From assembly GCF_003633725.1 (NCBI RefSeq), contig NZ_RBIJ01000001.1:441934-505933 (forward strand): 64,000 nucleotides of DNA, written 5' to 3'. This DNA comes from Brockia lithotrophica (GTDB lineage: Bacteria; Bacillota; Bacilli; Thermicanales; DSM-22653). This document shows positions 56,306 through 62,317 of the stretch, in pieces. Within the stretch, counting starts at the first letter, position 1. Every line of letters begins with the position of its first letter. Below the pieces are notes generated by a model, which was given only the letters and a program-made list of their open reading frames with translations, searched no databases and was not told the origin of the DNA. Both the position numbers and the translations under genes were made by a program.

Positions 56306-56542
56306 GTGTACGCCTTCTGGCCGGTGCAGTACGCGTCGCACGTCGTACGCCTCGCCCCCCACGAGGCGCTCTCCCTGCACGAACAGCTCCTCGTGTACAC
56401 CTACACCCTTTCGGATCTACGCGAAAAGGAAAAGTCCATTCAACATGAGGCAATCCGAACCATCGTAGCCCGTACCCGAGCGCTTCTGGAGAAGCACATC
56501 CGCGAGATCGTCGCGATCCTCGAAACCGCCCACGTTTCCTAA
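56306..56542 (+). CDS. Small helical protein, probable spore coat (CotF-related) partner
   Basis: 78 residues starting at GTG 56306, which has GAGGAGG eight bases upstream. The core HEALSLHEQLLVYTYTLSDLREKEKSIQHEAIRTIV is a long amphipathic helical pair like the ferritin-like halves of coat-F proteins. It lies 29 bases ahead of a CotF-like gene, and an equivalent pair occurs at 59991-60628. The role is inferred from this pairing; similarity to CotF itself is modest. Confidence 0.62.
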   Translation: MYAFWPVQYASHVVRLAPHEALSLHEQLLVYTYTLSDLREKEKSIQHEAIRTIVARTRALLEKHIREIVAILETAHVS

Positions 56543-56571
56543 CGCGAGAAACAAGGAAGGAGGGCATATGC

Positions 56572-56841
56572 GTGCTTACGCGCGAAGAACGCCACGTCCT
56601 TCAGGGGATCAACCTTTCCGCAAAGCAAATCATTTGGGGGGCGACGGGCGGTGCGATCGAATCGGCGACGCCCGTCGTGCGCGAGACGTTCCTGCGGCAG
56701 CTCGGCGAGTGGCTGGGCTTTCAGGGTGAGGTCTTTCACGCGATGAGCAAACTCGGCCTGTACCCCGCCTACGACCTGAAGACTCTCCTGCAGGGCGACG
56801 TAAAGCTCGCCAAAGAAACCCTGGAGGCGCGGGAAGCGTAG
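56572..56841 (+). CDS. Spore coat protein, CotF-like domain
   Basis: 89 residues. NLSAKQIIWGATGGAIESATPVVRETFLRQL and the following FHAMSKLGLYPAYD segment follow the coat-F pattern (two helices, TP-x-(L/V)-R turn, and a C-terminal Gly-(W/L)-Tyr). Such proteins reside in the spore coat. GTG 56572 has GGAGG eight bases upstream. A strong terminator follows. Confidence 0.75.
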   Translation: MLTREERHVLQGINLSAKQIIWGATGGAIESATPVVRETFLRQLGEWLGFQGEVFHAMSKLGLYPAYDLKTLLQGDVKLAKETLEAREA

Positions 56842-56866
56842 CGCCCCCACGGCACACCCAATACGC

Positions 56867-56904
56867 CCCTGCACCCGCCCGTAAAGGGGCGGGTGCAGGG
56901 TTTT
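56867..56904 (+). terminator. Rho-independent terminator after the coat-protein pair
   Basis: A perfect 14-bp stem CCCTGCACCCGCCC with its complement, six-base loop, then TTTT. Confidence 0.92.
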
Positions 56905-56918
56905 CCCCCACGCTGAGG

Positions 56919-57050
56919 TCAACCGAGAAGCCCAGCGCGGAGGATGATCACAAGGAGGACGTAGATCACTACCGCGAAGGCGAAGAGGCTGTAGGCGGAG
57001 GAGGGGGCAAACCCTCCGTCGGCCTGCGCCGCGGCGAAAGCTTTGGTCAT
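56919..57050 (-). CDS. YjcZ-family sporulation miniprotein 1
   Basis: 43 residues, starting MTKAFAAAQADGG and ending in the hydrophobic core LFAFAVVIYVLLVIILRAGLLG. This core matches the YjcZ family of tiny single-pass sporulation proteins whose function is unknown. ATG 57050 has AAGGAGGT eleven bases upstream. It is the first (downstream-most) of four tandem paralogues on the minus strand. Confidence 0.85.
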   Translation of the reverse strand: MTKAFAAAQADGGFAPSSAYSLFAFAVVIYVLLVIILRAGLLG

Positions 57051-57128
57051 GGTGCAAGCCCACCTCCTTCTCCCTCTTCGTCGTACGAGAAACGGTATCG
57101 GGAGCGAGGGAAAGTCTGCAAGACGGGT

Positions 57129-57272
57129 TTAGTAGGTCGGGCCGAGGATTCCGGCGCGGAGGATGATCACGAGGAGGACGTAGATCACCACCGCAAAGGC
57201 GAAGACGCTCACCCCGGAGGGAACGAGGAGCTGGGCTTCTCCGGCCGCCGCCTGCGCTTGCGCGAAGCTCAT
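57129..57272 (-). CDS. YjcZ-family sporulation miniprotein 2
   Basis: 47 residues: an Ala/Gln-rich head (MSFAQAQAAAGEAQLLVPSG) and the core VFAFAVVIYVLLVIILRAGI, nearly identical to copy 1. ATG 57272 has GGAGGT upstream (spacing about nine). It lies 78 bases upstream of copy 1. Confidence 0.85.
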   Translation of the reverse strand: MSFAQAQAAAGEAQLLVPSGVSVFAFAVVIYVLLVIILRAGILGPTY

Positions 57273-57308
57273 TCGGAACACCTCCTTCTCTCTAGGTGTG
57301 GCGAAGGC

Positions 57309-57407
57309 TTACGCACGCGGGACGAACACGCCGGTGTTCAAGATGATCACGAGGAGGACGTAGATCACGATCGCGAAGGCGAAGAAGTTGTAGCCGCTCT
57401 GGAACAT
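57309..57407 (-). CDS. YjcZ-family sporulation miniprotein 3
   Basis: 32 residues, the shortest copy: MFQSGYNFFAFAIVIYVLLV followed by a short C-terminal tail ending VPRA. The head is almost absent and Asn24 interrupts the C-terminal half. ATG 57407 has AGGAGGT upstream. Only 36 bases separate it from copy 2. Confidence 0.83.
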   Translation of the reverse strand: MFQSGYNFFAFAIVIYVLLVIILNTGVFVPRA

Positions 57408-57523
57408 CCCGTTCACCTCCTTCGCTTGCCCCGCCCTACGGTATGCCCCGCGCCTTCCGGGTGCGTGTGCGGATGTCCATCGGGCGCGGGGCCGTAGGGC
57501 TTACGCCTCAGCACCGGTAAGGT

Positions 57524-57664
57524 TTACCCCCACCAGCGGCCGTCGAGGACGATGACGAGGAGCACGTAGATCACGATGGCGAAGGCAAAGGTACGCATCC
57601 CCGCACCGCCGAAGAAACCGTCGAGGCCGCTTCCCGCGACGGCGCCGGCACCCGCCATGGCCAT
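57524..57664 (-). CDS. YjcZ-family sporulation miniprotein 4
   Basis: 46 residues with a longer Gly/Ala-rich head (MAMAGAGAVAGSGLDGFFGG) and the core TFAFAIVIYVLLVIVLDGRWWG. ATG 57664 is preferred because GGAGG lies eight bases upstream. It is the promoter-proximal copy. All four share the FAFA-(I/V)-VIYVLLVI core and probably arose by tandem duplication. Confidence 0.85.
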   Translation of the reverse strand: MAMAGAGAVAGSGLDGFFGGAGMRTFAFAIVIYVLLVIVLDGRWWG

Positions 57665-57843
57665 GCCATTCACCTCCTCCCGCGAGCGCTACACCCTATG
57701 CACGTCCCCGCCCTGCCGTTTGGGATTCGGCCCGCCGCGAAAGAAAACGGGCGCCGGGTTCCCTTTTTGCCGCGGTCGTGGTATGGTTCGGGACTGACGG
57801 GACCCTTTTCGGTGAACGCCCACGACGATCGGGAGGAATGCGT

Positions 57844-58653
57844 ATGGATACTCCTTTCGGCGCCGACCCACATGCTCCCAAGGACGCAGACGGCTCCCAA
57901 GCCGAGACTTGGGAGGCCGCGGGCTACCGAATTCCGATCCTCTATGAGGACAACCACGTGCTCGTGGTCGTAAAGCCCCCGGGACTTCTCAGCCAAGGCG
58001 ACGACACGGGACGTCCCAACCTCCTAGACATTCTCAAGGAACGGCGCAAGATCCGGGAGGCAAAGCCGGGACGGGCGTACCTCGCTCTCCTCCACCGCCT
58101 CGACCGGCCGGTCGGAGGCGTACTCGCCTTTGCCAAAACGAGCAAGGCGGCGGCACGCCTCTTCGCCGCCATTCGGGAACGGCGCTGGGAAAAGGGGTAC
58201 CTCGCCGTCGTCGTGGGACTCCCCCAGCCGGAAAAGGGGACACTCCGGCACGCGCTTCGAAAGATTCCCGGGAAGCCGCGCGTTCGGCTGGTCGACCCGG
58301 GAGATCCCGCCGGGAAGGAAGCCGTGCTCGACTACGAGACGCTCAAATACTCCGACGGCCTCTCCCTCCTCCACGTCCGCCTCGTCACCGGGCGTCCCCA
58401 CCAAATCCGCGTACAACTCGCCGCATTGGGGACACCCATCTGGGGAGACCCTGTATACGGGCGCAAAACAGAACGCAACCGAGAAAAGCCGCCCGGCGAA
58501 GGCCCCATTGGCCTTTGGGCGGCTTACCTCTCCTTTGCGCATCCGACGACGGGGGAACCCCTTGAGTTCGTCGCCCTGCCTCCACGGGAAGTCCCGTGGA
58601 CGCATTTTCCCCGTCTAAGGGACGTCGTCGAATCCTTTGCCCGCCGTCCGTAA
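57844..58653 (+). CDS. RluA-family 23S rRNA/tRNA pseudouridine synthase
   Basis: 269 residues. PILYEDNHVLVVVKPPGLLSQ starts the domain; the catalytic Asp is in LLHRLDRPVGGVLAFAKT, and VTGRPHQIRVQLA is the C-terminal motif. The uridine target is not predictable. ATG 57844 has GGGAGG seven bases upstream. The motif reads HRLDRPVGG rather than the usual HRLDxxTSG. No S4 domain is present. Confidence 0.9.
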   Translation: MDTPFGADPHAPKDADGSQAETWEAAGYRIPILYEDNHVLVVVKPPGLLSQGDDTGRPNLLDILKERRKIREAKPGRAYLALLHRLDRPVGGVLAFAKTSKAAARLFAAIRERRWEKGYLAVVVGLPQPEKGTLRHALRKIPGKPRVRLVDPGDPAGKEAVLDYETLKYSDGLSLLHVRLVTGRPHQIRVQLAALGTPIWGDPVYGRKTERNREKPPGEGPIGLWAAYLSFAHPTTGEPLEFVALPPREVPWTHFPRLRDVVESFARRP

Positions 58654-58654
58654 G

Positions 58655-58674
58655 TTCCGGCCAAAGCGCCGGAA
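58655..58674. terminator. Hairpin between convergent rluA-like gene and thiN
   Basis: TTCCGGC/GCCGGAA with a 6-base loop between two convergent genes; no long T tract follows on either strand. Confidence 0.5.
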
Positions 58675-58686
58675 ACTGGGGGCAAC

Positions 58687-59349
58687 TCACGGGGTGTCCC
58701 GGCTCTCCACGACGAGCAAGTACCCTTCGCGAATTCGAATTTCCCCCTCTCGGCCGAGGAGTTCGTTGGAAATCCCGCGGCTCGTCCCCCAAGCGAGGGA
58801 GGCGTTGTCCAGCGGATAGCGAAATCCCCGCAAGGTAATCCCGCGAACTTCCTCGCTCCACGGAAGGAGGGACACGAAGGGGAAGGCCGACCGGAGCACG
58901 TGAACCCCCGGCCCCAAAAGGCGAATGCGGTTGTGGGGGTCGGCGAGATACGCCTGACATCCGGAGCGAACGAGCCGGTACACGATGTGGACGTTGGCCA
59001 ACGTGTGGTCGAAACGCGTGCCGATGCCGCCGTATACGACGAGGACGCCCGGACGGAATTCTTCTCGGGCGGCTTCCACGGCGAGGTCGGTATCGGTCGC
59101 ATCCTTTTCGCGGGCAAAGGTACGGACGGGAACTCCCGCGGCCTTCAAACGTCGAACCCCCTCGTCGCCCACCGTGTCGAAATCCCCCACGGCCAGCGCC
59201 GGGCGAAAGCCACGTTCGACAAGCCACAGCGCCCCTTCGTCGGCGCCGATGAGAACCACCTCCTCCGCGTCCTCGCCTTCTGACCACAAGAGGGAACGGA
59301 AATCCTTTTCCTCCTTGGCGCCGCCGGCGACGACGAACGCCTTCCGCAT
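58687..59349 (-). CDS. thiN: Thiamine pyrophosphokinase
   Basis: 220 residues. IGADEGALWLVERGFRPALAVGDFDTVG, the FAREKDATDTDLAVEAA metal-binding stretch and GGIGTRFDHTLANV are the TPK catalytic signature; it makes thiamine diphosphate from thiamine and ATP. ATG 59349 has AGGAG six bases upstream. In Bacillus it follows rpe; here it has moved into the spore-protein region. Confidence 0.94.
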   Translation of the reverse strand: MRKAFVVAGGAKEEKDFRSLLWSEGEDAEEVVLIGADEGALWLVERGFRPALAVGDFDTVGDEGVRRLKAAGVPVRTFAREKDATDTDLAVEAAREEFRPGVLVVYGGIGTRFDHTLANVHIVYRLVRSGCQAYLADPHNRIRLLGPGVHVLRSAFPFVSLLPWSEEVRGITLRGFRYPLDNASLAWGTSRGISNELLGREGEIRIREGYLLVVESRDTP

Positions 59350-59369
59350 CGCCTTCTCCTCCCCTTCCC

Positions 59370-59398
59370 TCGACCTTTCACACACGCGGTGGTATACT
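59370..59398 (+). promoter_or_regulatory. Predicted sigma-A promoter of yggT
   Basis: TCGACC, a 17-base spacer and TATACT lie 46 bases upstream of the yggT start. Confidence 0.55.
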
Positions 59399-59443
59399 TG
59401 TGCGTGACGCAAAATCCCGCCGTTTCAGAGCGTGAGGTGGACG

Positions 59444-59722
59444 ATGATCCGCGAGTACATCCTGCTCTTCGCGAGTTGGGCGATAGACCTGTACTTCTAC
59501 GCGATGATCCTGTACATCCTCTCCTCCTGGATCCCGCCTTTGTACAATACGCGATTCGTACGCTTCCTTGCGGAGATCAGCGAACCATACCTGGGCTTTT
59601 TCCGCCGGATCATCCCTCCGATCGGAATCCTCGACATTTCGCCGATCTTCGCCCTGTTCGTCTACAAATTCCTCGCGATGCTCCTCTTGCGCGGCCTGTA
59701 CACCGTATTGTACGCCTGGTGA
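59444..59722 (+). CDS. YggT-family membrane protein
   Basis: 92 residues with two hydrophobic segments (LLFASWAIDLYFYAMILYIL and SPIFALFVYKFLAMLLL) around the conserved loop EPYLGFFRRIIPPIGILDISP, the YggT signature. The family is linked to cell division or osmotic protection without a defined mechanism. ATG 59444 has GAGGT five bases upstream. It is transcribed alone, with promoter and terminator on either side. Confidence 0.9.
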   Translation: MIREYILLFASWAIDLYFYAMILYILSSWIPPLYNTRFVRFLAEISEPYLGFFRRIIPPIGILDISPIFALFVYKFLAMLLLRGLYTVLYAW

Positions 59723-59735
59723 GAACCGGTTGCCC

Positions 59736-59780
59736 GCCGGTAAGGTCCCCGACCCGGGATCCTTACCGGCCTTTCGTTTT
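59736..59780 (+). terminator. Rho-independent terminator of yggT
   Basis: A perfect 10-bp stem GCCGGTAAGG/CCTTACCGGC with a 15-base loop, then CTTTCGTTTT. Confidence 0.85.
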
Positions 59781-59990
59781 GCGGGGGCGAACCGTTTTTT
59801 CCCGGTTAGCCCTACGCCAACTTCCAAGAAAGAACCTCGCGGCGATTCTCGAGTTCCCACCGAACGCGCGCCGTGTTTCGCATAAAAGGCGGGACATTAG
59901 GCACACTACGCCCGAAGACCCGAGGGCTTGCCCACGCAGGGTCTTTCCGGGAGAATTCGAACCCCGAATCCGCAGAGGAGGGTACGCACG

Positions 59991-60260
59991 ATGGTCAAGC
60001 CGCCCAACGTGATCACGACCAAGGACGCCCTCTACCTCAAGGACATCTTGGGCTGGGAACTCCTCGCCGTCAAGAAATGCACAAATCTCCAACAGCAGGT
60101 TCAAGATCCCGCACTCAAGCAGCTCTTTTCGGAGATCGCCGGAATGCACCGCCGGCACTACGACACGCTCCTCGGGCACCTGCAGACGCAAAACGCCGCA
60201 CAGATCCAGTCCTTCCAAGCTCAGGCGCAGATGACCCGAGAACCGCAGGCGGTACGCTGA
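59991..60260 (+). CDS. Small helical protein, probable spore coat (CotF-related) partner
   Basis: 89 residues: TTKDALYLKDILGWELLAVK, then LQQQVQDPALKQLFSEIAGMHRRHY, a four-helix ferritin-like half typical of coat-F companions, and a Gln-rich C-terminus. ATG 59991 has GAGGAGG nine bases upstream. It precedes a CotF-like gene by 44 bases. Confidence 0.7.
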   Translation: MVKPPNVITTKDALYLKDILGWELLAVKKCTNLQQQVQDPALKQLFSEIAGMHRRHYDTLLGHLQTQNAAQIQSFQAQAQMTREPQAVR

Positions 60261-60304
60261 ACGCCCGTCCGAGAAGCAAACCCAGCGATGAGGAGGGAAA
60301 CCCC

Positions 60305-60628
60305 TTGAGCCCTCAGATGCTTCAGCCGCCGGGAGCACAGGCGATTCCGGAAACGACCTCGATCAGCGACTACGACCTCGCCCGTGACGCACTCGCCATG
60401 GAAAAGTACATCATGAGCGGCCTCAACATCGCCGCGTGGGAAGCTACCTCCGAGCAGCTCCACAACGACCTTGTGCACATGCTCTCAGAGACCCACGGAG
60501 CAAACCGCAAGCTCTTCGAATACCTCTTCGCCAAGGGTTGGTACCCGGTAGAGGCCGAAGACCAACCAAAGCTGGATCAAATCTACCAAATGTTCGCCCA
60601 AGCCAAAGGAAAGCAAATGCCCCACTGA
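60305..60628 (+). CDS. Spore coat protein, CotF family
   Basis: 107 residues. ISDYDLARDALAMEKYIMSG, LVHMLSETHGANRKLFEYLFAKGWYPVEA is the coat-F pattern with the Gly-Trp-Tyr-Pro turn. TTG 60305 has GAGGAGG eight bases upstream; no ATG fits. It is probably expressed with the preceding gene during sporulation. Confidence 0.8.
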   Translation: MSPQMLQPPGAQAIPETTSISDYDLARDALAMEKYIMSGLNIAAWEATSEQLHNDLVHMLSETHGANRKLFEYLFAKGWYPVEAEDQPKLDQIYQMFAQAKGKQMPH

Positions 60629-60719: not shown

Positions 60720-62183
60720 TCACCGACCAATGAAATCCACGGTCATGTACGTTCCCGCCATTCCCGTCCCCAGGTGCGTGTATTTGGGAAAGGCGACGTT
60801 CTGCCGGTGCCCGGGAGAATTCAGGAAGGCGATGTGCATTTCGAGGGCGTCGTCGAAGCCCCGCGAGATGTTCTCCCCTGCAACCGTATCGGAAACCCCC
60901 ACTCGGGCAAGGCGATCGGCAAGCGTTCCGTTCGTAGGAGACACGTGGGCGAAAAACCCGTTCGTCAGCATGTCGATGCTGTGCCCTTTGGCCGCACGTG
61001 CAACCGCTTCGTCCCACGCGAGGGGGGAAAGGCCGTTCCTTAAGCGGAAATCTCGGACGAGGCCGGCGAGGTAGCGCTCTTCCGTCCGCAAAACATCGTC
61101 TCCGTAGGCGGGAGAAGCGCCGAGCGCTTCCGTAAGCCATTCCGGGCGCGGGGGCGTGTACTGAAGGGACACGGGATAGAGCCGTTCGCGCAAAATACGC
61201 TCCCAGCGACTTACCCGAAGGTAGAGGAGCGTATCGCCTGCGGCGTGGTCGACGAAGAGCTCTACGGCCGCCCGGCCGTCGGACGAAGCTGTGAGGAAAA
61301 TGCCGAAATCCTGGGGCATAGGGTTTACGCGCAGGGTAACTCCCCGATACGCAACGGAAACAGTGCTTTTCGGGGGTACGACACGTGTGTCCACCCGCCA
61401 ATCGAGAAACCTCTCCCCCGCACCGAGGACGAAGGATTCCGCACTCCCGCTCGAAAAGTATACGCCGCGACGGAATTTCCCCTCCCTCTCGTACGCCCAA
61501 AACACCTCTCCGTAAGGAGTTGTCCCTTGCCACGTAGGATTTCCCCACACCGCGGCAACTTCGGCGTAGGACGCCCCCAGCGGGAAAATCTCGTTTGCCG
61601 GGTTTCCGGACGAGAAGTCACGGGATCCCGTGGTCGGTTGTGGCGTGCTCGACCCCGTATCGCCCGTAGCCCTGGTGTCGGGAGAAGGCGAATCCGCGAT
61701 CGCAGGGGACGCCCCCGCCTTAGGGCCGTCCGCAGACTTTGTCGCGGAAAGAGGCGAACCCGTGGTTGGAGAGGACACTCCCGCCTTAGAGCCGTCCGCA
61801 GACTTTGTCCCGGAAGGATGCGAACCCGCAGCCGCGGGATCACCCATAGTCTTCGCATTGGACGAGGGCGGAACCGGCCCGCCTTCTTCGGTAGGAGGAG
61901 AGATCGCGGTGGAAGAGGGGACCTCCGATGAGGAAGGGGCGGAAGGCGGCGACTCCGAGGTGAGGGTGCCATCGGATTCCGTCGTTCCGGAAGAAGGCGA
62001 TCCGCCGGGACGTTCCGCGGTACGATTTTCGCCGCCGAAGGGAGGAAGATCTGTTCCCTTGTGTCCGGACGAAACCCCTGAAGCTGAAAGGGGAAAAACC
62101 CGGACTTCCGAGCAGCCGCCGACGAAAGTTCCCGTAAGAAGCAAAGCGCCGGCGAGGAACACGGCCCAAAGCCGCACGCGCAC
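60720..62183 (-). CDS. CAP/SCP-domain lipoprotein (YlbC/YkwD type)
   Basis: 487 residues. The signal peptide ends in a lipobox (FVGGC), so it is likely membrane-anchored outside. A Ser/Thr/Pro/Gly-rich linker of about 150 residues with two 22-residue repeats follows, then a CAP-associated domain (NEIFPLGASYAEVAAVWGNPTW) and a C-terminal CAP domain (FRLRNGLSPLAWDEAVARAAKGHS, NGFFAHVSP, GENISRGF). Bacillus CAP proteins of this type are sporulation- or envelope-associated. GTG 62183 has GGAGGG seven bases upstream. Confidence 0.88.
   Translation of the reverse strand: MRVRLWAVFLAGALLLTGTFVGGCSEVRVFPLSASGVSSGHKGTDLPPFGGENRTAERPGGSPSSGTTESDGTLTSESPPSAPSSSEVPSSTAISPPTEEGGPVPPSSNAKTMGDPAAAGSHPSGTKSADGSKAGVSSPTTGSPLSATKSADGPKAGASPAIADSPSPDTRATGDTGSSTPQPTTGSRDFSSGNPANEIFPLGASYAEVAAVWGNPTWQGTTPYGEVFWAYEREGKFRRGVYFSSGSAESFVLGAGERFLDWRVDTRVVPPKSTVSVAYRGVTLRVNPMPQDFGIFLTASSDGRAAVELFVDHAAGDTLLYLRVSRWERILRERLYPVSLQYTPPRPEWLTEALGASPAYGDDVLRTEERYLAGLVRDFRLRNGLSPLAWDEAVARAAKGHSIDMLTNGFFAHVSPTNGTLADRLARVGVSDTVAGENISRGFDDALEMHIAFLNSPGHRQNVAFPKYTHLGTGMAGTYMTVDFIGR
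61708..61827 (-). repeat. Two imperfect 54-base units at 66-base period in the CAP-protein linker
   Basis: Units 61708-61761 and 61774-61827 are about 85-90 percent identical by eye and encode the KSADG-S/P-KAG repeats of the linker. They are a local duplication in low-complexity coding sequence. Confidence 0.75.
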
Positions 62184-62317
62184 GGAACTTCCCTCCCCGA
62201 AGCCATTCGGCCAAGGCAGGTCCTTCGGCCGCCCGTCTCCGGAATCCGCGGCGAAGTCCCCTTGCACCTTTACTTCGGGGATCGGCGTCTTTTCTCGATA
62301 ACTTTAGACAGATTATC

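Follow-up and report, generated by a model that had tools for sequence, protein, structure and literature searches.

A Tandem Array of Miniproteins Related to YjcZ, Probably Made during Sporulation, in Brockia lithotrophica

The window, i.e., the whole 64-kb stretch of Brockia lithotrophica DNA that was analysed, contains four tandem miniprotein genes on the minus strand (56919-57664; mp1 to mp4) whose products share an almost invariant hydrophobic core. We consider it probable that these are paralogous single-pass miniproteins of an order-specific sister family of YjcZ, that SigK-type promoters drive their synthesis in the mother cell at a late stage of sporulation, and that they pack through their core in the outer forespore membrane, aiding coat assembly. 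Few small proteins of spore-forming Bacilli exist in as many copies as the YjcZ-type miniproteins, and a deep lineage that has a sister family, lacks PF09680 and shows clear end types provides a natural comparison of the core versus the ends. It should be noted that genes of this sort score below the curated family cut-offs and are easily overlooked in annotation.

Results

The positions of the genes and the other features are listed in Table 1. Within the array, mp4 is transcribed first and mp1 last. All four genes start with ATG and have the sequence GGAGGTG upstream, with a GGAGG-to-ATG spacing of 8 nt for mp2, mp3 and mp4 and of 12 nt for mp1, so that the preliminary description was right in assigning each of them its own strong ribosome binding site. 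It had also described four tandem proteins of 32 to 47 residues with a near-identical core and different heads, and both the coordinates and the alignment agree with this: the common core FAFA[VI]VIYVLLVI[IV]L contains 13 invariant positions per 15 residues (F-A-F-A-x-V-I-Y-V-L-L-V-I-x-L). In each protein, the 17-residue stretch of highest hydrophobicity (Kyte-Doolittle mean 2.7-3.1) consists mostly of the core, and the string VIYVLLVI was not found outside the four miniproteins in a six-frame search of the 64-kb window. AlphaFold2 predicts that mp3 forms one helix (residues 3-25); a sequence search for PDB relatives of the miniproteins found none. The array is separated from the convergent gene B by a hairpin that is a probable two-way terminator, and a resembling hairpin is present at the same position in a sister genome of the same genus (G001).

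Table 1. Features of the miniprotein locus and its surroundings (window positions unless stated otherwise).
Feature	Position	Strand	Remarks
Gene A	56306-56542	plus	78 aa, helical (FWPV); first coat pair; conserved in G001-G004
Gene B	56572-56841	plus	Coat_F PF07875, 33.2 bits (cut-off 25.7)
14-bp hairpin	56867-56900	none	between convergent gene B and mp1; z -5.1
mp1	56919-57050	minus	43 aa, single helix, MTKAFAAA head
mp2	57129-57272	minus	47 aa, MSFAQAQA head
mp3	57309-57407	minus	32 aa, short GYN head
SigK-type -10 element CATACCGTA	57437-57445	minus	38 nt before mp3; identical in G001
mp4	57524-57664	minus	46 aa, DGRWWG tail
Partial SigK-type box CATAGGGTG	57692-57700	minus	36 nt before mp4; identical in G001
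Pseudouridine synthase (rluA)	57838-58653		between array and second coat pair
Thiamine pyrophosphokinase (tpk)	58687-59349		between array and second coat pair
yggT	59444-59722		between array and second coat pair
Gene C	59991-60260	plus	two-helix protein, half-ferritin-like predicted fold
Gene D	60305-60628	plus	Coat_F PF07875, 66.8 bits (cut-off 25.7)
Fifth miniprotein MTPEGAYAVTLFSFAVIVYVLLVVAMRTV	G000:C1:563240-563329 (L045 4238-4327)	minus	between gerQ (with cwlJ) and argC

The preliminary description had named untranslated frames as one result that would speak against it; what we observed is purifying selection. The genome containing the window (G000; 1.87 Mb, 12 contigs; a Brockia genome of 1.69 Mb has been reported, PMC5928048) was compared with G001, the reference for pN/pS. 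The four genes common to both genomes (mp2, mp3, mp4 and the fifth copy) differ by 20 synonymous and 8 non-synonymous changes (pN/pS 0.14, binomial p = 5e-7), and the core by 7 synonymous and 0 non-synonymous ones, which shows that the miniproteins are translated and constrained. The family is present in all six genomes of the order that were examined and, taken together with the pN/pS value, this means that the miniproteins are not chance frames. Moreover, paralogs within one genome keep the amino acids of the core though 27-61% of their codons differ, which speaks for selection rather than recent copying; recent gene conversion is therefore not favoured as the source of the core identity.

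A comparison of copy number in related genomes, as the preliminary description had proposed, showed that the array on the rluA side varies from 0 to 7 genes, being oriented away from rluA in every case. Thus, there are four copies in G000, three in G001 (mp1 is the one without a counterpart; heads resembling that of mp1 occur at loci L036 and L039), three plus a headless relic in G002, one in G003, none in G004, and seven beside rluA in G303, a genome from a different family of the order. The relic, MMFYLVLVIYVLLLIALDYRWYGAF, is located at about 2834-2911 of L036, on the rluA side, where mp4 sits in the window. G002 and G003 contain additional arrays elsewhere. A search of 299 genomes of the phylum, which include only about ten others of the class, gave a match only in the genome of the window itself. 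In G436, a member of another family of the class, five genes of a bridging miniprotein type (GIAFILVLYVLLVIVSRTGWAY) form an array spread over both strands (L085 4209-5933).

The miniprotein family was seen only in genomes with sporulation genes. The sigK gene scored over the curated cut-off in 9/9 genomes tested, and spoIVA did so in each of the six from the order; both Brockia lithotrophica and H. schlegelii have been described as spore-forming (PMC5928048). A genome can have sporulation genes without the array, because G004 has no array yet possesses sigK and both coat pairs.

In the case of the promoters, we searched up to 110 nt upstream of 30 miniprotein copies for the SigK-type -10 element, CATAnnnTA. 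It precedes nine of them, always 31-40 nt from the start; shuffled sequences gave a mean of 0.33 copies with the motif and at most 2 of the 30. The same distance upstream of housekeeping controls contained it in 0/40 cases (Fisher p = 2e-4 versus the miniproteins), the controls being the upstream regions of rluA, tpk, yggT, naprt, tdk, speD and argC, with several starts approximated by the ends of tblastn matches. The nine boxes do not represent nine independent events, because the miniprotein copies are related; the letters within the box vary from locus to locus. CATAnnnTA occurs only five times on the two strands of the 64 kb, and one of these occurrences is the box that precedes mp3. The upstream search revealed no SigK-type box of their own for mp1 and mp2, which may be read from upstream starts. 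A search for sigma-70 promoters found one, versus 0.7 expected, and none before a miniprotein. YjcZ of B. subtilis belongs to the SigK regulon (PMC517825). We also observed a long hairpin on the minus strand between mp4 and mp3 (57425-57515), with the SigK-type box in its 3' arm; it is preserved in G001, one of the pairs there being G-U, and its fold z-scores are modest (-1.5 and -2.3).

The preliminary description called the miniproteins YjcZ-like. This held for the homology of the core and did not hold for membership of the family as defined by Pfam. No member reaches the cut-off of 21 bits of PF09680 (YjcZ_2): mp4 scores 16.7 bits and the other copies in the window give no match, and only 3 of 28 relatives match the family at all (best E 0.0052). 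Likewise, TIGR01732 (NCBIfam) matches none of the four proteins of the window and, weakly, one of the 28 relatives (E 0.067). A comparison of profiles, however, relates the miniproteins to a true YjcZ set with a score of 30.3 and to the bridging set with 46.4; with the hydrophobic columns permuted 150 times as controls, the scores did not exceed 20.7 and 21.6, respectively. In addition, a protein of G405 links both families, scoring 37.9 bits against PF09680 and E 2.5e-5 with the miniprotein profile. PF09680 occurs in 59 of 200 genomes of the class (spoIVA is present in 58 of these 59, p = 1e-8), often in tandem and with up to 15 matches per genome, and in 0/6 genomes of this order.

The fifth miniprotein, M.PEGAYAVTLFSFAVIVYVLLV (the EGAY..LFSFAVIVY type), lies between gerQ and argC, with cwlJ next to gerQ, in G000, G001 and G303. 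The copy of G303 adjoins gerQ and has argC at a distance of about 4 kb, and in G001, G002, G003 and G004 the type adjoins argC. Upstream of the fifth copy in Brockia is the sequence CATACACGT, which we take to be nearer to the SigE box, and the copy is possibly read from a SigE-type promoter. The location of one copy at cwlJ-gerQ, which are germination/coat genes, suggests a role for that copy.

Discussion

The simplest reading of the sequence comparisons is that the miniproteins form an order-specific sister family standing in the place of YjcZ. They have in common with YjcZ_2/YjcZ (PF09680, TIGR01732) that they are tiny, multicopy, often tandem proteins with a single helix, Gly/aromatic heads and a core of the type FAx(I/V)V(I/L)(Y/F)(V/I)LL(V/I)I; they differ in that their core reads FAFA[VI]VIYVLLVI and is followed by a longer, charged or aromatic tail. 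Tandem copies of YjcZ are already common in Bacilli, so that the finding is only modestly surprising, and the array looks like the order's own version of the YjcZ family. SscA of B. subtilis is a very small spore coat assembly protein, and the array proteins are like it in their very small size. SscA is listed among the coat components (PMC12368082). In the literature we found no paper assigning a mechanism to YjcZ-type miniproteins. The association with spores that the preliminary description proposed gains support from the SigK-type motifs, the presence of sigK and spoIVA in the order, the fifth copy at cwlJ-gerQ and the profile link with YjcZ.

Based on these data, the following mechanism may be envisaged. 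The mother cell would make the miniproteins late in sporulation from the SigK-type promoters. The invariant core would form one transmembrane helix inserting in the outer forespore membrane, the side of the membrane being a guess, and would most likely pack against like helices or against a common partner, whose nature we can only guess. The variable, nearly uncharged heads and tails, rich in Ala, Gly and aromatic residues, would then protrude and help coat proteins to settle.

Whether the ends are specialised or redundant was addressed by comparing only the parts outside the core, scored against shuffled ends. The preliminary description regarded the miniproteins as subfunctionalised by their heads, and this stands for two types: mp4 (DGRWW), whose tail is also present in G001, G002 and G003, and the fifth type each have evident counterparts in genomes of other genera, which in most cases score well ahead of the second-best match. 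Since these two types are kept across genera, subfunctionalisation is supported for them, and they appear to be separate types that fit with specialised roles. The ends of mp1, mp2 and mp3, in contrast, do not sort cleanly into ortholog groups between genera, so that their differences may reflect drift, and the three may be partly redundant. This lack of sorting would be expected if the array consisted of dosage copies, i.e., four functionally equal membrane peptides of the spore, present in several copies to raise their amount, whose end differences are mostly drift around an essential core. The copy number at the site and the concentration of amino-acid changes in the ends of mp2, which account for six of the eight differences between G000 and G001, are also in line with dosage. 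However, besides the conservation of the DGRWW and EGAY..LFSFAVIVY types, in every extra array of G002 and G003 a DGRWW-type gene immediately precedes one of the M[SA]FA type, a repeated pairing that argues against dosage, which we regard as a doubtful, though serious, explanation. A bolder version of our favoured reading holds that the order replaced YjcZ with a modular set, in which an invariant helix carries interchangeable ends that each steer a different coat partner, and in which the fifth copy is the membrane anchor of the GerQ-CwlJ germination pair; we consider this unlikely.

A wider unit, a spore-protein island in which the array and both coat pairs form one joint module, had been proposed in the preliminary description. 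It finds some support in the gene order NAPRT-A-B-(mp)-rluA-tpk-yggT-C-D, which G000-G004 share, interrupted in G002 by a contig break. However, in G004 this run, including both coat pairs, is retained but contains no miniprotein, no coat pair accompanies the seven miniproteins of G303 at rluA, and none is near the extra arrays of G002 and G003. Array and coat pairs are thus separate things, the clustering is positional only, and the island as one unit was rejected on the evidence of G004 and G303; a joint module is accordingly very unlikely. Of the two flanking coat-like pairs, genes B and D are indeed Coat_F proteins and their partners A and C are not, and three housekeeping genes separate the second pair from the array; the miniproteins are unrelated to Coat_F. 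The toxins of type I toxin-antitoxin systems, which are small and hydrophobic, are frequently arranged in tandem, and the small size, the single hydrophobic helix and the tandem copies of the miniproteins would suit such toxins. This identity is nevertheless highly improbable, in view of the strong ribosome binding sites directly before each start, the SigK-type promoter motifs and the conservation through an order with a link to YjcZ. The region also gave no RNA family match of note and no PADLOC match, and a toxin or defence role is therefore unsupported.

Some observations concern the second coat pair. AlphaFold2 predicts that gene C encodes a two-helix hairpin (helices 10-36 and 40-82, pLDDT 81), whose top Foldseek/PDB matches are the half-ferritins EncFtn/EncB, with weak E-values of 0.17 and above. 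Unlike half-ferritins, it has no conserved ferroxidase Glu; the Glu at the matching helices in Brockia is Gln in the orthologs of G002-G004, which makes metal chemistry unlikely. A sequence search of the PDB found no relative of gene D. At loci L039 and L048, CATACTA boxes lie 36-40 nt before gene C; they presumably resemble the SigG -10 element, and the second coat pair may therefore be made in the forespore. Finally, gene D is adjoined by a minus-strand gene (60720-62267) whose product has a CAP domain (PF00188) and a long Ser/Pro/Gly region of low complexity.
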